Source: Aquabacterium sp.
Lineage (GTDB): Bacteria; Pseudomonadota; Gammaproteobacteria; Burkholderiales; Burkholderiaceae_C
Direction: 5' to 3'
NCBI GenBank assembly: GCA_030654395.1
Contig: JAURXM010000095.1
Coordinates: 62,001-126,000, forward strand
Length of the DNA stretch: 64,000 nucleotides
Position 1 is the first letter of the stretch; the number at the start of each line of letters is the position of its first letter. Both the position numbers and the translations under genes were made by a program. Under the pieces are notes generated by a model that was not told where the DNA came from, did no database searches, and was given only the letters and a program-made list of their open reading frames with translations. Positions 1-62,706 of this stretch are shown piece after piece.

Positions 1-386
1 TGGGCCATCAGTGCTGGCAACCCGCCGCCCAGTCCGGTTCGGTCATACCAAGGGTAGCCAAACTCCAACTGATGCGTTACCCCATTGATCACCACCCTCG
101 GCGAGTTACCACCGTGGTAGCCCCAGTTTTGATCGCATGTGTTGGTCGACACAAGGCACTTCTGGTAGACCAAGTTAAGGGTGCTGCTCATGGCGGCTTG
201 CATGCCATACACCGCGGCAATATTGGCATCCGCGTGCAGTAAAACGAACTTGGGCAGAGCCGTCGCGGCCAATACTCCCAGAATCACGATGACACAGATC
301 AACTCGATCATGGTAAAGCCGCACTCGTATCCGGCTAGAGCTTGGATATGGGGGCGACGCCGTAAGACAAAGACGCGAGGATTCAT
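1..386 (-). CDS. Type IV prepilin-like protein (3' end beyond window)
   Basis: Read from an ATG at 386 on the minus strand, the frame stays open to the window edge (128 codons). It begins with a 23-residue basic leader, then the prepilin peptidase motif GFTMIEL: cleavage after Gly23 gives mature Phe1 and the conserved Glu5, followed by the hydrophobic assembly helix (ICVIVILGVLAATALP). The rest has two Cys (KCLV...NTCDQ) and Tyr/Gly-rich stretches, as in minor pilins, MSHA-type pilins or pseudopilins. It should be an inner-membrane protein processed by PilD and assembled into a pilus or pseudopilus. No other pilus gene is visible; any partners would lie to the left. The exact pilin class cannot be decided. 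Confidence 0.8.
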   Translation of the reverse strand, partial: MNPRVFVLRRRPHIQALAGYECGFTMIELICVIVILGVLAATALPKFVLLHADANIAAVYGMQAAMSSTLNLVYQKCLVSTNTCDQNWGYHGGNSPRVVINGVTHQLEFGYPWYDRTGLGGGLPALMA

Positions 387-691
387 AACTAAATTTTAGA
401 CACGACCAAGCACGGTATAAATTGAAAAAGCACTCATCCCCAGCGCCAGTTTTTTATAGCATGAACTGAAGTAGATTTGCATCGTGGTTGCGTCAAGCGC
501 AGGAGCGATGACCGTTTGATGATCTCGCACACGATGCATAGGTGCCGTATGTTTGCACCCACGCATTCCTTCGTGTGAGCAATGGCCTTGGGCATCACCG
601 TGGTGTCCTACGGATCAATGGATGCTCTGGTCTCATTTCAGCCGAAATCGCGTTGCAAGCATGCAAAATAAAAGCATGGCCATGCCCCACT
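387..691. other. Intergenic region upstream of the pilin-like gene
   Basis: 305 bases between the pilin start (386) and the stop of the last gene of the CsgG-like operon (692). I see no gene. The part nearest the pilin (about 387-470) is AT-rich and should hold its promoter, but no convincing -35/-10 pair can be assigned. A 12-base perfect palindrome (674-685, GCATGGCCATGC) followed on the minus strand by a T-rich stretch lies just after the operon; it is too short-stemmed to call a terminator. Confidence 0.5.
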
Positions 692-1105
692 TTATTGCCC
701 GCCGATGGAGATGCCGTTGACGTTGACCTGACCGCCAATGGACAGCAGCAGATCTGCGTCGTTGTTGAGTACGTTCAATTTGCCCACAGTCAGGCTGCCA
801 CGCAACTTGACACTGTTGACGTTGAGCGTAGCGTCAGGCGTGGTCACATTGCGCAGGTCGATCAGGCTGTCTTTCGACAGGTCTTGCCCTTTTTTGATGG
901 CATTGCAGACCTTGCCTTGACATGGCAATTTGTCCAACGGTAAGCCATCGACGCCAGCCGCACCCTGGCCCGTCGTTCCCTTGACGGCGACGACGGCCGC
1001 AACGGCTGAGTGGTTATCAGACACCGTGACTGGCCCATACACGGCTGGCGCAGCAAAGGCCCAAACTGGCAGCGCAAGCGCAAGCGCGACGCACCTGTTT
1101 TTCAT
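692..1105 (-). CDS. Small secreted N-x-N-S-V motif protein (paralogue 4)
   Basis: 137 residues from the ATG at 1105; an ATG at 1129 would add eight residues ahead of the signal peptide and is less likely. The N-terminus is a signal peptide (MKNRC...VWAFA) cut before APAVYG. The mature chain opens with the family signature AP-x-V-x-G-x-V-T-V-x-D-N, has a Cys pair C-x4-C (62 and 67), then NVNSV at 95-99 and NVNGI at 128-132, 33 residues apart. It is the last gene of a six-gene minus-strand operon with a CsgG-like lipoprotein. No named family is recognised. The short beta-strand-like, Asn/Gly/Val-rich repeats suggest a substrate of the CsgG-like pore, possibly amyloid-forming; that is inference. 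Confidence 0.75.
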   Translation of the reverse strand: MKNRCVALALALPVWAFAAPAVYGPVTVSDNHSAVAAVVAVKGTTGQGAAGVDGLPLDKLPCQGKVCNAIKKGQDLSKDSLIDLRNVTTPDATLNVNSVKLRGSLTVGKLNVLNNDADLLLSIGGQVNVNGISIGGQ

Positions 1106-1134
1106 CGACACACAAGCATGTTTTGCCATGGCTG

Positions 1135-1506
1135 CTACTTTGCCCAGACGGAGTTGATGTTACTGCCACTGCTGACCACAACCAGACTGGGCGTGCTGCC
1201 TGAGATCAGCACATTGCCCATGACACGCCCGTTCCCCGTGATCAGAACCGAATTGATGTTCACTGGCGGCAGAAGGTTCGGCACATCAATGCCTACACTG
1301 ACGGGAAGGCAAATGCCTAACAAGCATGGCTTGACTTTCACGCCGAGCTTGAACCCATCGGGCATCACCACCACCTGCCCAGCATGGCTGTTGGCAATGA
1401 TCACATCGCCATCGATCTGAGGTGCTGCCGTGGCTGCAGCAGGCACGATCAAGGTCAGCCAAGAAAGTGACACTGAGGCTGCAAGCGAAACGCGGTGAGA
1501 CAACAT
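1135..1506 (-). CDS. Small secreted N-x-N-S-V motif protein (paralogue 3)
   Basis: 123 residues from the ATG at 1506, 15 bases after the CsgG-like gene. A signal peptide ending AAATA is followed by APQIDGDVIIANS, the shared mature N-terminus of this set. A C-x4-C pair (61, 66) sits at almost the same place as in paralogue 4. NINSV occurs at 83-87 and 116-120, 33 residues apart, and the protein ends only three residues after the second copy. It has no transmembrane segment after the signal peptide. Function unknown; probably exported to the periplasm and then to the surface with the neighbouring CsgG-like protein. Confidence 0.75.
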   Translation of the reverse strand: MLSHRVSLAASVSLSWLTLIVPAAATAAPQIDGDVIIANSHAGQVVVMPDGFKLGVKVKPCLLGICLPVSVGIDVPNLLPPVNINSVLITGNGRVMGNVLISGSTPSLVVVSSGSNINSVWAK

Positions 1507-1521
1507 ATGCGACCGCCCCGG

Positions 1522-2664
1522 TTAAGTTTTCTTGAAGACCGTCAACCTGGATGGCAACGGCACATTGATGAACAAAGACACGAACACATCGGCGCTCACA
1601 ATCTTCGTTGGTTCCGGCAAGTCCAGCCGACTGAACACATCCAGCACCGCGCGCGCCGTTGCTGTATCCATTTGACCGGATTCCTCGACGTGTTCGCCAA
1701 AGTCCTTCACGGTGTTCTGAATCCAGGCGACCTGATCGCGCGGTGTTTGCTCGGAAAACGCGCGGCGTAGTCGATCTAGCACCACCTCATCTACTTCGGT
1801 GTCAGGCAGGATGCGCCAGTAAGGCAGGGATGTGTAGCGACCAATGAGTTGGATCACGCTGATCTCGACCAAGGAGCGCACCGCTTGATGGCGTCCTTGC
1901 ATCTGCCTGGCGCTGGACGACATACCAATGCCGTTGCCGATGATGGAGAAGTCAATGGCACCCTCGGTGCTTTCGTTGATCACACTCATCAGGTTCACAG
2001 CCTGAACACGCGGGATCATGGTTTGCGTCTTGAAGTCCACCACATTGAAGTCCAGCCCCAGCTTAGAGATGGTGGATGACGACTTCTGCGTGCCGGTTCC
2101 TGTGGTCTCGCCGCGCCCCGCACCGAACAAAAAACCCACGTCACGCGACTTGCCTGCCGACACGACACTGCGATCGAACTGGGTGATGGCCCCGGTCACC
2201 AGAATGTCTGGCACCGTCACGTTCATGTTGACGCCTTGCTGCGCATGCGCCACCACATACTCAGGATGAAAAGGTGTGTAAACGACGAGAGACCCAATGT
2301 TGTTGATGGCGCTGCGCACCATCTCTGTGATGTCACCTGGTAGTTCGGCGCCAATCAGGGGAGCGGACAAGCCGGTCGCGTCACCCACAGATTTTGTTTG
2401 CACGTAGATCGGCTTGCTTTTGACGCCTTTGTAGATCTCCATCAGGGAGCCTAGGCGCACCAAAGCCGATGTGTATTGGTCCGAGTGTGGTTTGGGCTCT
2501 GAGATGGCACTGCTCAGCTTGAGATCCAGGCGCCGCACGTCATCTGCGCTGCTCATGTTGAGCATCTTCGGTGTGGTGCAGCCTGTGCTGAGCAGCAGCG
2601 GCAAACAAAGCAACAGGGCACGCCCAATGGGTGGGGCTAACGGTGAGATCAAGCGGTACTTCAT
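1522..2664 (-). CDS. CsgG/HfaB-like outer-membrane secretion lipoprotein
   Basis: 380 residues with a lipoprotein signal peptide: hydrophobic run at 16-25, then STG-Cys29. The central part follows the CsgG order: a segment with LPGDITEMVRSAINN (about 108-122), VTGAITQFDRSV (156-167, compare the VEGSI-type strand of CsgG), a Gly/Thr-rich low-complexity stretch (about 178-200), a long strand LGLDFNVVDFKTQTMI (202-217), then a helical segment ending RYTSLPYWRI. CsgG forms the outer-membrane pore for curli subunits, and HfaB anchors and exports the Caulobacter holdfast anchor proteins. It is longer than E. coli CsgG (about 277), with an added C-terminal part from about residue 290. It lies inside an operon of five small secreted proteins, the expected substrates. 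The CsgG link is by motif order only. Confidence 0.65.
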   Translation of the reverse strand: MKYRLISPLAPPIGRALLLCLPLLLSTGCTTPKMLNMSSADDVRRLDLKLSSAISEPKPHSDQYTSALVRLGSLMEIYKGVKSKPIYVQTKSVGDATGLSAPLIGAELPGDITEMVRSAINNIGSLVVYTPFHPEYVVAHAQQGVNMNVTVPDILVTGAITQFDRSVVSAGKSRDVGFLFGAGRGETTGTGTQKSSSTISKLGLDFNVVDFKTQTMIPRVQAVNLMSVINESTEGAIDFSIIGNGIGMSSSARQMQGRHQAVRSLVEISVIQLIGRYTSLPYWRILPDTEVDEVVLDRLRRAFSEQTPRDQVAWIQNTVKDFGEHVEESGQMDTATARAVLDVFSRLDLPEPTKIVSADVFVSLFINVPLPSRLTVFKKT

Positions 2665-2672
2665 GGTTGGTC

Positions 2673-3107
2673 TCAGTTGGGCGATATCGCCGTGATATTG
2701 CCTTTGATTGCCCCCTTTTGAACCACAACAGTCACGTTCCCGCGGACAGTCCCCGTGATGATCGGGCTTGCAATGCTCAGACCACCATTGGTGGCAGCGA
2801 CACCGTTCACGTCAACAGCGCCGTCCCTGATGACCGACGTCACACCGCTGCCTGTGTTCTGCCCGATGCTGTTTAGTCCTTTGCCGGTCATTGTTTTGGC
2901 TTGGGATATAGCAAGGTTGGTCACAAAGCCCGAATTGAATGGGGCATTGTCTACAGGCCTGCTATCGGCGCGGTAGGCCGCGATGTTGTCTTGGAACGTA
3001 CTCCCGCCGGCCCACGCGGGCGCCCCGATGAACGCCAGAATGACGCCCCCGATGGCTGAGGCTCTGGTTGCCGTACTGAGGCCATGGAGGCTGACTAAGC
3101 TTGTCAT
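2673..3107 (-). CDS. Small secreted protein of the CsgG-like operon (divergent member)
   Basis: 144 residues, starting eight bases upstream of the CsgG-like gene's ATG side of the operon, so probably co-translated. A long signal peptide ends at APAWA, followed by GGSTFQDNIAAYR. It lacks the strict N-x-N-S-V pair but has looser equivalents, DVNGV at 99-103 and KGNITAI at 135-141, and the same Gly/Asn/Val/Thr-rich C-terminal half. The N-terminal half differs from its neighbours and contains FNSGFVTNLAISQ. It may be a chaperone, nucleator or adaptor like CsgE/F or HfaD rather than a bulk subunit. I recognise no family. Confidence 0.65.
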   Translation of the reverse strand: MTSLVSLHGLSTATRASAIGGVILAFIGAPAWAGGSTFQDNIAAYRADSRPVDNAPFNSGFVTNLAISQAKTMTGKGLNSIGQNTGSGVTSVIRDGAVDVNGVAATNGGLSIASPIITGTVRGNVTVVVQKGAIKGNITAISPN

Positions 3108-3152
3108 ACAGGAGGACCTTCTGTGAAATGGACGGGCGCAGCTCAGGATCAG

Positions 3153-3515
3153 CTACTGGCCAATGGCCACCGAGTTGATATTGAGGGCAGCACCCAACAC
3201 AATGACGTTGTCGACGGTATTGCCCGTGACCGAGACGCGACCGCCTATGCTGACGTCACCATTGATCGCCACTGAATTGATGTTGACCTTGGCGCCGTTG
3301 TTCGAAAAGCTGCCACTTAGACTCAGGCCAAGCGACTTCAGAAAACCGCCTGCTGACAAACTGGCGCCGCCAGAACCACCGAGAACGATCACAGTTTCTG
3401 CGCGGTTGTTGGCTACTGTGATGTCGCCGCTGATCGACGGAGTTGCCCACGCAGAACCCGACAGCAGTGGCCACAACATCAGGCCTAATTTAATTTTGGC
3501 GTAATACATGCGCAT
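3153..3515 (-). CDS. Small secreted N-x-N-S-V motif protein (paralogue 2)
   Basis: 120 residues from the ATG at 3515, chosen because a GGGG-rich ribosome site lies six bases upstream and the signal peptide then has normal length (MRMYYAKIKLG...SAWA); a start at 3563 would add 16 residues. The mature protein begins TPSISGDITVANNR, the family signature, followed by a Gly/Ser-rich stretch, NINSV at 78-82 and NINSV at 112-116, 34 residues apart, and ends four residues later in AIGQ. Between the copies it alternates hydrophobic and polar residues (AINGDVSIGGRVSV), typical of a stacked beta structure. Second gene of the operon; function unknown. Confidence 0.75.
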   Translation of the reverse strand: MRMYYAKIKLGLMLWPLLSGSAWATPSISGDITVANNRAETVIVLGGSGGASLSAGGFLKSLGLSLSGSFSNNGAKVNINSVAINGDVSIGGRVSVTGNTVDNVIVLGAALNINSVAIGQ

Positions 3516-3566
3516 ACAAGACCCCTGTTTGCTGCCGACCGAGCTGACCGGCAGCAATGACATAGA

Positions 3567-3905
3567 TCAGTGAACGTCGATGTCAACTGAGTTGACATTG
3601 CCCGTGCCGCCGATGGCTGCGCTGATACCGGAGTGGTTGCCCTTCATGATCATGTCGCCAGTCACTGGGCCGCCGCGAACCTTGATGCTGTTGGCATTGA
3701 TGCTGGCACCGGGGGTTTCAATGTTGCCACCTAGGCTGGCACCAGGCAGCAGGCTGCCCAGCGACACATTCCCAGAGCCTTTGACAGCGGCAGCGGCAGT
3801 CAGCGTGGCCTTGTTGTCCTGCACTGTGACGGAGCTGGCAACAGCGGGGGCAGCCATAGCCAGAACAGGGGAAACGAGAAGGGCGGCAATAATAAGATTT
3901 TTCAT
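3567..3905 (-). CDS. Small secreted N-x-N-S-V motif protein (paralogue 1, first gene of operon)
   Basis: 112 residues: signal peptide MKNLIIAALLVSPVLAMA, then APAVASSVTVQDNKATL. NANSI at 70-74 and NVNSV at 103-107 are again 33 residues apart, and the protein ends VDIDVH. It is the most compact member of the set and lacks the Cys pair. It is the promoter-proximal gene, so probably the most expressed, as the major subunit is in several fibre operons; that is inference. Stop-to-start distance to paralogue 2 is about 50 bases. Confidence 0.75.
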   Translation of the reverse strand: MKNLIIAALLVSPVLAMAAPAVASSVTVQDNKATLTAAAAVKGSGNVSLGSLLPGASLGGNIETPGASINANSIKVRGGPVTGDMIMKGNHSGISAAIGGTGNVNSVDIDVH

Positions 3906-4226
3906 ATAAACACCTAAAAGTTATTTAACGGGACTTGTGTTGATATTCTGAAAATTGCTCTTCAATCAATCCACAACGCCAGTTTGTCAGCTTCGGAGTT
4001 TAATTCGATCAGGGTTTTCATCTACCGCGGGTATTATATTCAGTGAGTGTGAATATTCCACGATCATATTAATTAATATAATATATGCCAAATGTACTAT
4101 ATCAATAAAAGAAAATCAAATGACGCCAAAAAAGATCATCTTTAGCCATTGGCGTGGCGCCGCGAAAAATTCACGCACTGCAGAAAGGAAGAATAGGTGA
4201 GGGTTGCGGCGGATTGGTTCATCGCG
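3906..4226. promoter_or_regulatory. AT-rich upstream region of the CsgG-like operon
   Basis: 321 bases with no convincing gene between the operon's first ATG (3905) and the stop of the flavin oxidoreductase (4227). It is far richer in AT than its surroundings, especially 4025-4130. It must carry the minus-strand promoter of the operon and possibly the oxidoreductase terminator. Two palindromes are listed separately. Confidence 0.55.
4036..4079. promoter_or_regulatory. Two operator-like palindromes upstream of the CsgG-like operon
   Basis: ATATTCA (4036-4042) and TGAATAT (4050-4056) form a 7-base inverted repeat with a 7-base spacer. Ten bases further, 4066-4079 is the perfect 14-base palindrome ATATTAATTAATAT. 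They lie 130-175 bases before the first ATG of the operon. Geometry suits a dimeric regulator, but the AT-rich background raises the chance of accidental palindromes. Confidence 0.35.
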
Positions 4227-5486
4227 TCAGCGACGTCGACGACGCAATACGCGCAAAAAATCATGCCAAAAGTGCCCCAAAAGCGCCGATAAGGGGCTGA
4301 GGTTTGGATTCGGGGCGTCGCCAGCTGCCATGCGCTCTATTTGGCTGTAATACCAGCCGGCCTGACTGAAGTTGTTGAGGCCACGCATTGTCTCTGACTT
4401 GCTGTTGGGCCCCCAGTAGCCCGATCCAAGCACCAAACGGCTTTCCGGTACAGGCAAGGTATCCACCAAGCCGGCCATCATGCGTGATGGGAAGCTCGGA
4501 TCTAGGCAGAAGGGGCGCGCCACGCCGATCATGTCTGTGTGGCCTGCCTTCAACGCGTCATCCATGCCGGTCTTGGTCCGAAAGCCGCCCGTAACCATGA
4601 TCGGCATGGCAGCCACTGCCTTGATCGATTGGGCATACTCTAGGAACATCGCTTCACGGTGGCGGGTGCTGTCGCGCACCTGATCCTGTGGTGTGTGCTG
4701 GAAGAATGCCAGCTGCTCGTAAGTGCCGCCTGACACCTCCAACAAGTCCACGCCAGCCTCATTGAGCCAAGTCACCACCTGCACGCACTCATCCAGCGTG
4801 AAGCCGCCGTTGACAAAGTCCGAAGAGTTCAGCTTGACTGATATGGGGAATGAGGCGCCCACACGTTCCCGCACAGCACGCACGACGCTCAGCAACAAAC
4901 TTGCCCGGTTGATCAGACTACCTCCCCACTGGTCGTTGCGCTGATTTGTGCGTGGCGACAGGAACTGCGACAACAAATAGCCGTGTGCCGCATGGATCTG
5001 CACACCATCGAAGCCCGCGTCTTTCAAGATGCCCGCCGTGTTGGCAAAGCGCCTGATGATGTCTTGGATGTCGGAATCGGTCGCGGCCCGGGGTTTGCCA
5101 AAGTTGCCAGCCAGTTGCAACTGCACCTCAGATGGCGCCAAGGGGTGTGCATTGACCAGACGCGGGCATTGCCGACCAGGGTGGCTGATTTGCGCCCACA
5201 ACTGGCTGCCGCCCTCATGCACGGCACGCGCCCAGTTGATCAAGGCATACAGCCCAGTGTCGTCCTCGACCACCACGTTCCCTGCACGCTCCAGATAGCG
5301 ACGGTCAATCATGATGTTGCCAGTCACCAGCGCTGCCGCACCGCCTTGGGCCCAGGTTCGATATAGCTGCAAATGCGATGCTGTCGCGTGATCATGCGCA
5401 TTGGCGAGACCTTCTGTCATCGCTGTTTTGATGATGCGGTTGGGCAGCAGATGGCCGCAGGGCAGCACGAGGGATTGTTCAATCAT
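4227..5486 (-). CDS. NADH:flavin oxidoreductase, old yellow enzyme family
   Basis: 419 residues from ATG 5486 (a TTG at 5498 is the alternative). A TIM-barrel FMN enzyme of the OYE/2,4-dienoyl-CoA reductase type: the N-terminal PNRIIKTAMTEGLA strand, AQISHPGRQ, the signature HAAHGYLLSQFLSP, then RNDQWGGS and the phosphate-binding end MVTGGFR...IGVARPF. The last residues are a basic tail (RVLRRRRR). Single-domain length, so without the Fe-S/FAD half of dienoyl-CoA reductases. Such enzymes reduce activated C=C bonds of enones, nitro compounds or enoyl substrates with NAD(P)H; the substrate here is unknown. It lies 75 bases downstream of an AraC-type regulator on the same strand, which probably controls it. 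Confidence 0.85.
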   Translation of the reverse strand: MIEQSLVLPCGHLLPNRIIKTAMTEGLANAHDHATASHLQLYRTWAQGGAAALVTGNIMIDRRYLERAGNVVVEDDTGLYALINWARAVHEGGSQLWAQISHPGRQCPRLVNAHPLAPSEVQLQLAGNFGKPRAATDSDIQDIIRRFANTAGILKDAGFDGVQIHAAHGYLLSQFLSPRTNQRNDQWGGSLINRASLLLSVVRAVRERVGASFPISVKLNSSDFVNGGFTLDECVQVVTWLNEAGVDLLEVSGGTYEQLAFFQHTPQDQVRDSTRHREAMFLEYAQSIKAVAAMPIMVTGGFRTKTGMDDALKAGHTDMIGVARPFCLDPSFPSRMMAGLVDTLPVPESRLVLGSGYWGPNSKSETMRGLNNFSQAGWYYSQIERMAAGDAPNPNLSPLSALLGHFWHDFLRVLRRRRR

Positions 5487-5561
5487 TTTCAATTCCAATT
5501 AGTCAATTTGAGTTTAGGCAATGTGATCCCGGTCCTGAGCAGAGCCGCAGTCAACCGAGCC

Positions 5562-6578
5562 TCAGCGGTCACGACGCTCTCTTGGGGTGCAGCCAAAAAA
5601 GCGCTTGAACGCCCGGGAGAAATTGCTCATTTCGGTGAAGCCACAGAGCCGAGCGATATCCATCACCGGCAGAGTTGTCGTCAAAAGCAAGGTTTCGGCG
5701 AATGACATGCGAACCTCGGTCATCAGGCTGGCCAAGGTCGAGCCCTCATCCTCCAGTCGCCGATTCAACGTGCGCCGAGACAGGGCTACCTGATCTGCCA
5801 CAACATCGCCGTGTAACACCTTGCCAGCTACCAACAGATCTCGGATCACACGTCTGACTTGCTGGCTGCAGGGGCGAGCCAATTCATCTCGCTTAAGCAA
5901 TTCGCCCAGCGAGCGTTCTGCCTCCTTGCGCATGACTCGGCTTTTGGTCACCAAACTGATGGCCATCAGGCGCTTGGGATAGGCCACCATATCAACCCGT
6001 GCACCGTAGTGCACCTTGCGAATCAGGTCGCCTAGCAGAATCAGAGGATGGGCCCCCTTGTCATGACGGAAGTGATATTCGACGCCATCCAGTGGCTCAG
6101 CTAGGAACGAATGGAATTTGGAGAACAAACCAAGCACGATCTCGGTCAGCAGGTCGTCAACCTCACCAAAATCAGACAACCTTGATACCACGATGCGTAC
6201 TTCATCTTGAGTTTCTTCTCTGCTCATGCTGTAGGCTGGAAACAGCACTGAACAATACTGCTCCACAGCTTCGAGTGCCTCGCCTAGGTTGGCGCAAGCC
6301 ATGAGCAACGAGGCCAACGGCCCGATGATGGTCAGCGGCACGTGAGTCAGATACTGCTCCGCCACAGACTGCCCTGGCAGGCAGTAAGGCAGCGCTGCCA
6401 CCAAGGCCCGTTGGTACTGCTCGCCATCGATCGTTTGGCTTGGGTCGTGTAATTGCGCCTCCGTCAAGCGCAAGGCGTTTAAGAGCACGGAAAGCGGCGC
6501 ATGTCGTTCCTGAAGAAGACCTTCTATCACCTCCATGAACCGCACGGAGAAGGTCAATTCTTTCAGGGGGATGATCAT
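5562..6578 (-). CDS. AraC family transcriptional regulator (OruR-like)
   Basis: 338 residues. The N-terminal two thirds match the arabinose-binding-like domain of the OruR/MmsR-type branch (PLTIIGPLASLLMACANLGEALE; VEYHFRHD). The C-terminal AraC double helix-turn-helix is clear: DQVALSRRTLNRRLEDEGST for the first helix pair and DIARLCGFTEMSNFSRAFKRFFGCTPRERR for the second. It is a cytoplasmic DNA-binding protein, probably an activator responding to a small organic effector. The adjacent flavin oxidoreductase on the same strand is the most likely target. Confidence 0.87.
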   Translation of the reverse strand: MIIPLKELTFSVRFMEVIEGLLQERHAPLSVLLNALRLTEAQLHDPSQTIDGEQYQRALVAALPYCLPGQSVAEQYLTHVPLTIIGPLASLLMACANLGEALEAVEQYCSVLFPAYSMSREETQDEVRIVVSRLSDFGEVDDLLTEIVLGLFSKFHSFLAEPLDGVEYHFRHDKGAHPLILLGDLIRKVHYGARVDMVAYPKRLMAISLVTKSRVMRKEAERSLGELLKRDELARPCSQQVRRVIRDLLVAGKVLHGDVVADQVALSRRTLNRRLEDEGSTLASLMTEVRMSFAETLLLTTTLPVMDIARLCGFTEMSNFSRAFKRFFGCTPRERRDR

Positions 6579-22111: not shown

Positions 22112-23758
22112 ATGAAATTCTTCGATGAAGCCACCATAGATGTGGCCGCCGGTGAAGGTGGCAGCGGCTCAAGCAGCTTCCGTCGCGAGAAGTTCATCCC
22201 CTTCGGTGGCCCCAATGGCGGCGATGGCGGCCGAGGCGGGCACATCTATGTGGTGGCTGACCGCAACATCAACACCTTGATCGATTACCGCTACGCACGC
22301 CGACACATTGCACGCAATGGTGAGCAAGGGCGCGGCGCCGATCAATTTGGCCATGCTGGCCCGGATATCACCTTGCGCATGCCCGTGGGTACGATCATCA
22401 GCGACTTCGAAACCGGCGTCGTCATGATGGAGCTGCTCGAGCACGGCGAAACGATCCTGCTGGCTAAGGGCGGTGACGGCGGCTTCGGCAACATGCACTA
22501 CAAAACAGCCACCAACCGTGCGCCTAAAAAGAAGACGCCGGGCTGGCCCGGCCAGGCGTTTAAACTCAAATTGGAATTGCGCGTACTGGCTGACGTGGGT
22601 CTGCTCGGCATGCCCAATGCGGGCAAGTCCACGCTGATCGCGGCGATTTCGAACGCACGCCCCAAGATCGCTGACTACCCGTTCACCACCTTGCACCCTA
22701 ATCTGGGCGTGGTGCGTGTGGGCCCTGAAAAAAGCTTCGTGGTTGCCGACATTCCAGGGTTGATTGAGGGTGCCTCTGAGGGCGCTGGTTTAGGGCATTA
22801 CTTCCTGCGTCACCTGCAGCGCACCCGCGTGCTATTGCACGTGATCGACTTGGCTCCGTTTGATGACACCGATCCGGTGGCCCAAGCACGCGCCATTGTC
22901 AACGAGCTCAAGATTTATGACCAAGCCTTGTTTGACAAGCCGCGTTGGTTGGTGCTCAACAAGCTGGACATGATCCAGCCTGAAGACCGTGTCACGCGCG
23001 TGCTGGAGTTCGTTCGCCGTTACGGTTGGAAGGGCCCTGTCTTCCAGATATCTGCCTTGACGAGGCAAGGGTGTGAGCAGCTGGTTCACATCATTTACCA
23101 ACACGTGGCCTCGATGCAAGAGCACCACGTCGAAGCGGACATCCGCTTTGACGTGCAAGCTAGCTTGCCTATGGCCAGTGACATGATGGCCAAGGCTGGC
23201 ATCGATTACGAGCCAGACTTGGAAGTCCTGGTTAAACCCCAAAAGACGGCAGGCCAAAAAGCTGCTGCGAAGAAAGTACCCATGAAGAAGGTTCCCATGA
23301 AGAAAACTGCCGTTGTGAAGAAGGCTGCACCGGCCAAAGCGCCAGCTCAGAAAGTCGTCGCTAAAAAGGTCGCCGTGAAAGCTACCCCAAAAGCCGCACC
23401 AAAAACGGCAGCTAAAACAGCGATCAAACCAGCTGCGAAGCCTGTGATCAAGCCTGTTGCCGCGAAGAAGGTCGTTGCGAAGAAAGCAGTTGCCAAAAAG
23501 GTGATCGCTAAAAAGGCTGCGCCAGCTAAGAAAATCGTCGCACAAAAGGTCGCCAGCAAAAAAGCGGTGACGACCAAAGTGGTGACCAAGAAGGTTGTTG
23601 CGAAAAAAGTCGCGGTCAAAAAGGTCGCAGCAAAGAAGGTGACGTCCAAGGTCGCTACCAAAAAAGCAGTAGCAGTTAAAAAAGCAGTAGCAGTTAAAAA
23701 ACTGGTCGCCAAAAAAGCGCCTGCAAAAAAAGTCGCGGCCAAGAAAGCAGCCCGCTGA
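22112..23758 (+). CDS. obgE: GTPase ObgE with a long histone H1-like C-terminal tail
   Basis: 548 residues, against about 340-390 for most Obg proteins. The Obg domain ([11 protein letters not shown], Gly-rich loops, to about 158) is followed by the G domain: G1 [11 protein letters not shown]3 [10 protein letters not shown]4 LNKLD, G5 in QISAL. After [11 protein letters not shown] the chain continues from residue 377 with about 172 residues made almost only of Lys, Ala, Val, Pro and Thr ([13 protein letters not shown] repeats), like eukaryotic H1 tails and the Bordetella BpH1 proteins. Obg acts in 50S assembly and stress control. The tail should bind nucleic acid. The reading frame is continuous through it, so the fusion is real unless assembly of the repeat is wrong. 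Confidence 0.95.
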
Positions 23759-61359: not shown

Positions 61360-61614
61360 ATCTGCGCCACTTAAGCGCTCCAACGCTGTCCTCTTTGGAG
61401 GCAGCGAAGGGGGCAATGATGGCCATGGCCGCTTTGACGCATCGAATGGATGCCCCAAACTCGTGCCATGCTTAACCTTGTGTGGTTGAATTTCCTATCC
61501 GTATCCGGTTTGTCCGATTTCCCCGCATTAAACCGGATCATTGGGCGCCACAACAGTTCGTCAAGGACGATCCCTACAGTCTGAAGCGTCTTCTTCAACT
61601 TGCTTGGGTTCCTC

Positions 61615-62706
61615 ATGTCCATTTCAAAAGTTCTATTCGCTTCGGCTTTGGCCGCGCTGTCTGCGCAGGCTTTTGCTGCCCCCTTTGCCGTCAATGATCT
61701 GGTCGTGTACCGGGTTGGCACTGGCTCAGGTGCCTTGGGTAGTACGTCCACGGCGGTCTTCCTGGATGAGTTCACCAAGACAGGTGCTTTGGTGCAAAGC
61801 ATCGCCCTGCCCACGGTGGCCTCTGGTGTATTGAGCCCTGTCACAGCAAGTGGCTCGGCCACGTCTGAAGGCCAGATCAACCGCAGCGTGGACGGCAAGT
61901 CCCTGGTGTTGACCGGCTATGGCACCACAACGGGTACTGCCTCGGTGGCCGGCTCGACCGCGGCGGCTGTGCCCCGTCAAGTCGTCACTGTGGCTGCTGA
62001 CGGTTCGCTGACCACCAAGGCCGTTGGCACCCTCTTGGGCGGCAACAACGTTCGCACGGCTGCAACTGTTGACGGCACGGGTACCTATGCCGCCGGCGGT
62101 GCTGGTGTGGCTTATGTGAATGGCTCTGGCGTGGCCACTCAACTGAGCACGACCAACACCCGTGACCTGGTCATCGCTGACAACCAGCTGTTCTACAGCA
62201 CAGGCTCCGGCACCACTGGCATTTACTCGCTGGGTACAGGCCTCCCCAATTCAGGATCCTTTACTGGCACCTTGCTCGCTGCCTCTGCCAGCCCCTTCGG
62301 CTTCCTGTTTGCAGACCTGAGCAACAGCGTTACCGGCGTGGACACGCTGTATGTCGCCGATGACAACGCCACCACTGGCGGCATCCGCAAGTTCAGCAAG
62401 TCTGTCGCTGGCGTCTGGTCACTGAACAACACCATCGTTGTCAGTGGTGTGCGTGGTCTGACTGGTGTGGTCAATGGTGGTCAAGTCCAGTTGTTCGCAA
62501 CCAGCGCGACCAACCTGTACGGCCTGACGGACTCGACCGGCTACAACGCCAACTTGTCTGCCGCGGTCACCACATTGGCCACTGCTGCCGCCAACACGGC
62601 CTTCCGCGGTTTGGCCCTGACTCCTGCCGTTCCTGAACCAGCCACTTATGGCTTGGCCTTGGTCAGCCTAGCCCTGTTCGGCGCGATGCGCCGCCTTCGC
62701 GGCTGA
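61615..62706 (+). CDS. PEP-CTERM protein with beta-propeller-like repeats
   Basis: 363 residues from ATG 61615 (a TTG five codons earlier is rejected). Signal peptide MSISKVLFASALAALSAQAFA; long Ser/Thr/Gly/Ala-rich body with repeated short strands (VNGSGVATQLSTTNTRDLVIADNQLFYSTG in parts, TLYVADDNATTGGIRKFS), typical of a surface beta-propeller; and a sorting tail VPEPATYGLALVSLALFG...RRLRG. An exosortase, not in this window, should process it. A strong terminator follows. Function unknown. Confidence 0.87.
   Translation: MSISKVLFASALAALSAQAFAAPFAVNDLVVYRVGTGSGALGSTSTAVFLDEFTKTGALVQSIALPTVASGVLSPVTASGSATSEGQINRSVDGKSLVLTGYGTTTGTASVAGSTAAAVPRQVVTVAADGSLTTKAVGTLLGGNNVRTAATVDGTGTYAAGGAGVAYVNGSGVATQLSTTNTRDLVIADNQLFYSTGSGTTGIYSLGTGLPNSGSFTGTLLAASASPFGFLFADLSNSVTGVDTLYVADDNATTGGIRKFSKSVAGVWSLNNTIVVSGVRGLTGVVNGGQVQLFATSATNLYGLTDSTGYNANLSAAVTTLATAAANTAFRGLALTPAVPEPATYGLALVSLALFGAMRRLRG

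Follow-up and report, generated by a model that had tools for sequence, protein, structure and literature searches.

The described systems closest to the locus reported here are the Caulobacter holdfast anchor HfaA-HfaB-HfaD and curli. As described in PMC6707917, HfaA and HfaD depend on HfaB for getting to the outer membrane, and HfaA is CsgA-like and amyloid-like. PMC10192328 states for curli that curlin subunits have to remain unfolded for passage through CsgG and that open-ended beta-solenoids polymerise via their matching ends. Here we describe an operon of Aquabacterium sp. (assembly GCA_030654395.1, contig JAURXM010000095.1, positions 62,001 to 126,000, a stretch of 64,000 nucleotides referred to throughout as the window), located at 692-3905 on the minus strand, in which a CsgG/HfaB-like lipoprotein is encoded together with four small secreted proteins bearing paired N-x-N-[SG]-[VI] motifs (NSV proteins) and one further secreted protein, here called div. 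We consider it just on the probable side that the operon specifies a surface-assembly system with a single pore of the CsgG/HfaB type, in which the NSV subunits stack to form a thin filament or an anchor at the surface.

The operon consists of six open reading frames (ORFs) separated by intergenic gaps of 3 to 45 bases. The two motifs lie 33 residues apart in the proteins encoded at 692-1129, 1135-1506 and 3567-3905 and 34 apart in that at 3153-3563, as an earlier sequence-only reading of the window had described, and these are the only four of 340 window ORFs (≥ 60 amino acids) with the motif; a pair so spaced arose in 0-2 of 20,000 shuffles per protein (shuffled from residue 26 on). The shared signal peptide and mature start (AP/AP/TP/AP) were likewise as described when read by eye, although the start of the 3153-3563 product is perhaps the Met at residue 17. 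That reading had named no described fibre with this signature, and the NSV proteins gave no match over the curated cut-offs of Pfam or NCBIfam, none at E ≤ 0.01 in PHROGs, and only matches judged unrelated in a PDB sequence search with the NSV profile. PraA/PraB was rejected as a family name, the NCBIfam matches of the 3567-3905 product (E 0.017 and 0.17) falling under the cut-off.

The 380-residue lipoprotein had been proposed to be CsgG/HfaB-like, and two lines of comparison agree with this. All 25 Foldseek matches of its predicted fold at E ≤ 0.001 were CsgG or CsgG-complex chains, and hhalign related it at 97.2% (E 2.9e-11, 252 columns) to an HfaB profile of 33 rows, in which one genome was entered twice. 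The predicted model has the CsgG fold including two long beta-hairpins (154-180/186-210 and 215-242/247-255), which presumably sit where CsgG has its transmembrane hairpins, and the Gly-Cys of the lipobox is invariant in 26/26 aligned relatives. By predicted fold and profile comparison the lipoprotein is CsgG-like, but its scores fall short of the cut-offs of Pfam and NCBIfam. The resemblance of its C-terminal part to PG_binding_1 is sub-threshold and seen in relatives only, and DUF6491 was rejected as a family name (matched by 17 of 26 lipoproteins, best E 0.0059, none over the cut-off). The window genome holds a second CsgG-family gene on contig 122 (L020:6113-7863, 91 bits), which is followed by two small lipoprotein-like genes in what is apparently an ordinary lipoprotein trio.

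At E ≤ 1e-5 the lipoprotein was found in 7 of 100 sampled genomes (its own, two at 47% and 41% identity, four at 26-30%) and in none of 41 same-genus genomes. When one genome was scanned for each species, 32 related loci were identified, one in a metagenome-assembled genome (RBC049, locus L022, 47% identity) and the rest mostly in Comamonadaceae, with genera including Acidovorax, Xenophilus, Pseudacidovorax, Variovorax, Xylophilus, Ottowia and Diaphorobacter. The neighbouring genes at these loci are an independent observation because the scan used lipoprotein patterns alone, and 32/32 have an ORF that carries at least two NSV-type motifs. By profile, we found div in 32 loci, an upstream small NSV protein in 31, a giant NSV protein in 30, a Sel1-type protein in 29, and a downstream NSV protein and a downstream OmpA-domain protein in 27 each. 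Four of the five loci with gaps are short or end nearby (L029, L031, L036 and L047; the start of L029 falls inside the apparent end of a giant), and the fifth, L022, has no giant or Sel1-type gene within its 17 kb and carries its OmpA gene upstream.

The linkage of the paralogues to a CsgG-like gene, also suggested beforehand, was borne out in genome samples. Among 399 genomes of the order the NSV profile matched four, the window genome included (G000, G075, G230, G263), and these are exactly the genomes with a close lipoprotein (E < 1e-170), all NSV matches lying within ~5 kb of its gene; 11 further genomes had a weaker lipoprotein match (1e-15 to 1e-26) and no NSV match. The lipoprotein and NSV samples of the order were treated as the same draw, as handles and totals agree. 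Across 350 genomes of the class NSV matches occurred in the window genome only, and no NSV protein apart from a CsgG-like gene was found in the 399 order and 350 class genomes with this profile, which was built from CsgG-linked sequences. The lipoprotein profile (A3) comprised the window and 25 of the 32 loci (the near-duplicate or short entries L026, L029, L037, L040, L041, L047 and L052 were not used), A4 the window, L022, L013 and a further 22 of the remaining 31 loci, the NSV profile (A5) the four window proteins, that of L022, and 13 upstream and six downstream small proteins, and A6 23 of the 30 giants.

The giants, of 1046-1285 amino acids, stand beside a small subunit and are made up of eight or nine two-coil copies of it together with about ten single coils. 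A profile hidden Markov model (HMM) of the small subunit, built from the last 86 residues of 13 upstream small proteins, matched all 23 giants tested, as eight tandem copies in L025, L027 and L031 and nine in the others with a period of ~86. These copies were full or nearly full length, single ones being as weak as E 0.1, and a few partial matches follow. In the L051 giant, autocorrelation peaked at 85 in the N-terminal part and at 28 in the C-terminal part, which holds roughly ten single coils, each 28-32 residues long. The giants have no Pfam domain. An AlphaFold2 model of one giant is a continuous beta-helix with one coil of ~28-34 residues per motif, the motif Asn-Ser lying in a two-residue turn, and the modelled coil resembles the three-sided beta-helices that polysaccharide lyases and tailspikes contain, unlike the curlin repeat. 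Where the sequence-only reading had suggested one beta-solenoid or amyloid unit per repeat, the solenoid coil is thus borne out as a prediction for the homologous giant only, and the amyloid unit is not supported, given the size and three-sided appearance of the coil and a genome in which neither curlin repeats (PF07012) nor CsgF (PF10614) were found at E ≤ 1, no search having been made for CsgE (PF10627).

In a tree of the modules of three giants and the small proteins, for which few columns were available, eight of nine module positions clustered by position across genera, the fourth loosely. The four window proteins formed a group of their own (98/78) with the pairs 3153/1135 (99/85) and 3567/692 (99/86), joined by the RBC049 protein (99/95); the forks are uncertain because of the few columns and the long branch of 1135. 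Module positions shared across genera and the separate window group suggest that the fused form is old and that the paralogues in the window expanded locally and separately from it. No giant was found in the window genome, a draft assembly.

Taken together, these data are consistent with a system in which the NSV subunits would be synthesised with the signal peptides read from their sequences, and the lipoprotein, as its predicted CsgG fold suggests, would oligomerise into an outer-membrane pore and export them in the unfolded state, in the way that CsgG handles CsgA. Outside the cell each subunit may wind into two parallel beta-helix coils, one per NSV motif, as predicted for the giant homologue, and such open-ended coils could allow head-to-tail stacking, with a thin filament or an anchor at the surface as the product. 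In the window genome the four paralogues would do the job of the giant as separate pieces, with div probably at the pore as an adaptor or nucleator, a guess from its position. Stacking is argued because the same two-coil unit recurs 8-9 times per chain in 30/32 loci and one such chain is modelled as a continuous helix; the fused form is the best argument, not proof, that separate subunits could stack. More tentatively, and as a possibility short of probable, the locus may represent a distinct class of CsgG-type surface filament, a non-amyloid counterpart of curli built of a two-coil, open-ended, three-sided beta-helix. This unit would occur as loose subunits that have to polymerise in the window and as an 8- or 9-fold concatemer next to the same subunit mostly in Comamonadaceae, and the class would be one branch of a wider group of CsgG-like exporters whose members each have a tandem-repeat cargo of their own.

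The sequence-only reading had counted div as a divergent fifth member of the NSV family, an assignment that we reject since div has no NSV motif and no relation to the NSV proteins was detected by profile (hhalign 1.2%). By profile, every related locus encodes a homologue of it next to the CsgG-like gene on the upstream side, with a clear link to L022 (E 1.8e-12) and a weak one to the other loci (best 4e-6), and as judged from these profiles div is a conserved family of its own. The G8 domain was rejected as a family name (E 0.0027 in one div relative, under the cut-off), and a PDB sequence search with the div profile gave only matches judged unrelated, including a synthetic PPR protein at 2e-4.

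A number of observations weigh against the filament or anchor interpretation. The profile check suggested for the lipoprotein gave a PF03783 match but one of 17.6 bits (18.6 in the genome search), under the gathering score of 20.8, and only 2 of 26 aligned lipoproteins matched PF03783 at E ≤ 0.1. The NCBIfam HfaB model (NF037935) scored 17 bits in the window and 19.1 in L051, far under its 300-bit cut-off, and PDB sequence searches with the lipoprotein gave no CsgG. VIA-align placed other proteins of the same core near the CsgG rows (LptE-like 3bf2 11.5, FlgT 11.2, PelC 10.9, TolB 8-9), and block means of pLDDT (predicted local distance difference test) in the hairpin region range from 46 to 82. 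Only the absence of NSV matches from the other 395 order genomes counts towards linkage, because the NSV profile contains rows of the four genomes matched (the window, L022, L038 and L043, the latter three being G075, G230 and G263). In the class sample the lipoprotein profile found relatives in four genomes (E 1e-52 to 1e-79) and in two more (~1e-20) that had no NSV match at E ≤ 0.001, and by autocorrelation four of nine distant loci (L014, L016, L017, L159) lack a tandem-repeat cargo of the kind described below. The subunit at 1135-1506 matches the module weakly (small-subunit HMM E 0.1), the beta-helix model is that of a giant homologue, and the giant, which could be one long monomeric adhesin, has no Foldseek match at E ≤ 0.001 (best Ag43, 4.5e-3). 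The lack of a giant in the window genome is not certain because the draft has 95.6% completeness and 8.3% contamination.

At the other five distant loci (L015, L018, L120, L161, L162) a secreted protein with tandem repeats of 37-40 residues is encoded no more than 3 kb from a CsgG-like lipoprotein. Autocorrelation is a blunt measure here, giving the window subunits scores of just 3.1 and 1.4, and the ranking may have been disturbed by undefined values; a score of 5.3 at L014 came from a protein read by eye as Sel1-type and was left uncounted. Small secreted proteins with two or four ~37-residue repeats are encoded upstream of the CsgG-like genes at L161:6468-7399 and L162:2468-2998, both in class genomes with a lipoprotein relative and no NSV match. 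Two small two-repeat proteins of L161 match the small-subunit HMM at 5e-5 and 0.0012 (among the ORFs of nine loci), the four-repeat protein of L162 has a different sequence, and no Pfam family was found at E ≤ 0.01 for L161:7103-7399 and L162:2468-2998.

The closest lipoprotein (47%) belongs to another family of the order, which makes horizontal transfer of the operon possible. An insertion with an empty site in congeners was considered and rejected. None of the same-genus genomes holds the lipoprotein, but no empty site could be read in them because the flavin oxidoreductase that flanks the operon is represented there by paralogues alone (~43-49% identity). A scan of viral contigs with the lipoprotein gave no confirmed match, and plasmids only remote Azospirillum matches at 26-28% identity.

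Of the alternatives to a stacked filament or anchor, one modelled on the holdfast anchor supposes that the NSV proteins exported through the pore fold individually at the cell surface, as beta-helix adhesins or as anchors for polysaccharide, with no polymerised fibre. Among named families the lipoprotein is closest to HfaB, and HfaB loci of another family encode a small secreted protein immediately before HfaB and a longer, repeat-rich one after it, which from their positions we take to be HfaA and HfaD; in VIA-align the giant has polysaccharide lyases, epimerases and tailspikes among its neighbours, and the downstream OmpA-domain genes of 27/32 loci are presumed peptidoglycan tethers. We nevertheless regard this alternative as rather unlikely, as no profile relation was detected between the cargoes, hhalign giving 21% over 23 columns only for div and HfaA, 1.4% for NSV and HfaD and 0.8% for the giant and HfaD, against 78.6% for HfaA and HfaD with each other, and several two-coil paralogues of one unit would fit stacking better than separate adhesins. 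As a separate observation, L116:3970-6978, beside an HfaB-like gene (214 bits, under the cut-off), encodes a 1002-amino-acid secreted protein with Ser/Asn/Ala-rich repeats, a possible HfaD counterpart.

It is improbable that the system is periplasmic, with the lipoprotein a scaffold rather than a pore and the NSV proteins periplasmic or structural parts of the cell envelope. TolB, PelC, LptE and FlgT, which share the core and are no CsgG pores, do score close behind, and the sub-threshold PG_binding_1-like tail would fit contact with peptidoglycan, but the two long hairpins fall at the transmembrane-hairpin positions of CsgG and a beta-helix chain of > 1000 amino acids would be hard to fit in the periplasm. 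Least probable, and in our view very unlikely, is a curli-like functional amyloid in which NSV cross-beta fibres are nucleated at the pore. A CsgG-type pore with short repeats containing a conserved Asn is in keeping with it, and PMC3521004 describes long CsgA homologues, with as many as 529 residues and 22 repeats; against it stand the failure to find PF07012 and PF10614 in the genome at E ≤ 1, the predicted coil of ~28-34 residues with its three-sided match, and the curlin spacings, Q-x10-Q occurring in 1/24 small NSV proteins (twice, in window 692-1129) and Q-x-G-x-x-N in 2/24. Stacking of NSV subunits outside a CsgG/HfaB-type pore remains the reading that we prefer.

Table 1 Features of the operon and its upstream region (window coordinates; module-tree values as in the text)
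Feature	Position	Strand	Description
NSV subunit A1	3567..3905	-	112 aa (amino acids), signal peptide, motifs at residues 70, 103; small-subunit HMM positions 12-86, E 6e-6
NSV subunit B1	3153..3563	-	136 aa as called, signal peptide, motifs at residues 94, 128; small-subunit HMM positions 13-85, E 5e-6
div protein	2673..3107	-	144 aa, signal peptide, no NSV motif; directly upstream of CsgG-like gene, homologues likewise placed in 32/32 related loci
CsgG/HfaB-like lipoprotein	1522..2664	-	380 aa, lipobox LSTGC, CsgG-fold domain ~85-281, C-terminal helical part ~290-366 resembling PG_binding_1
NSV subunit B2	1135..1506	-	123 aa, signal peptide, motifs at residues 83, 116; module-tree partner B1 (99/85), long branch
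NSV subunit A2	692..1129	-	145 aa as called, signal peptide, motifs at residues 103, 136; small-subunit HMM E 3e-8, second coil only; module-tree partner A1 (99/86)
Presumed promoter region	3906..4226	.	A+T-rich, upstream of operon; two overlapping sigma-70-like matches, minus strand, 4063-4105

Promoter-like sites in 350-4300 were not above chance (4 against a shuffle mean of 2.1, standard deviation 1.8), nor were the results of a terminator scan, and Rfam gave no match on window 1-6000. Directly downstream of the operon, ~300 bases off on the same strand, lies a type IV pilin-like gene (window 3-386, minus strand; whole gene L019:6845-7387) with the N-terminus GFTMIELICVIVILGVLAATALPKF, as read by eye. 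Elsewhere in the window, 22112-23758 is an ORF of 548 amino acids named by eye as an Obg-like GTPase, with a C-terminal tail, ~170 residues long, that is rich in Lys, Ala and Val, and the ORF at 61600-62706 has a C-terminal PEP-CTERM sorting motif (PF07589, 26.3 bits against a cut-off of 20.7).

If the preferred reading is true, CsgG-type pores would not be tied to curlin amyloids, and other solenoid folds, including chains of > 1000 residues, would be exported as well. A module found both loose and fused would be a natural test of the polymerisation of secreted beta-helices and possibly a minimal self-assembling fibre for materials work, and the analysis offers functional hypotheses for a conserved Comamonadaceae cluster whose repeat proteins are over no Pfam, NCBIfam or PHROGs cut-off. 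Among the papers listed in searches of open-access literature, none describes the NSV family as judged from its listing, and the novelty of the family is provisional because subscription papers and preprints lay outside the search; passages of a functional-amyloid review (PMC12520557) show no holdfast or Burkholderiales system.

Compared with known systems, the holdfast anchor of Caulobacter is the closest functional model, with which the operon and its relatives share the HfaB-related, CsgG-like lipoprotein and the combination of a small secreted protein upstream with a longer repeat-rich partner. The NSV cargo differs in its two-coil module, its eight- or nine-fold concatemer in relatives and its several small paralogues in the window, and these bacteria are not known to have a holdfast. 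With curli the operon has in common a CsgG-fold exporter, small repeat-bearing secreted subunits and the beta-solenoid principle, although its exporter has an extra C-terminal part and its predicted coil is larger, with a three-sided match; because of this different coil and a genome search that found neither curlin repeats nor CsgF, and that did not extend to CsgE, it is not assigned to curli. From three-sided beta-helix proteins such as RbmB, PfbA, phage tailspikes and mannuronan epimerases the giant is set apart by ~10% identity, Foldseek matches that are not significant, tandem two-coil modules, linkage to a CsgG-like exporter and the lack of a Pfam domain. Other CsgG-like loci with tandem-repeat cargo have different repeat sequences and an exporter that is often of at least 500 amino acids, with DUF4384 in that of L161. 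Export of the CsgG/HfaB type is known in kind, and the unannotated, predicted beta-helix cargo would be new to it.

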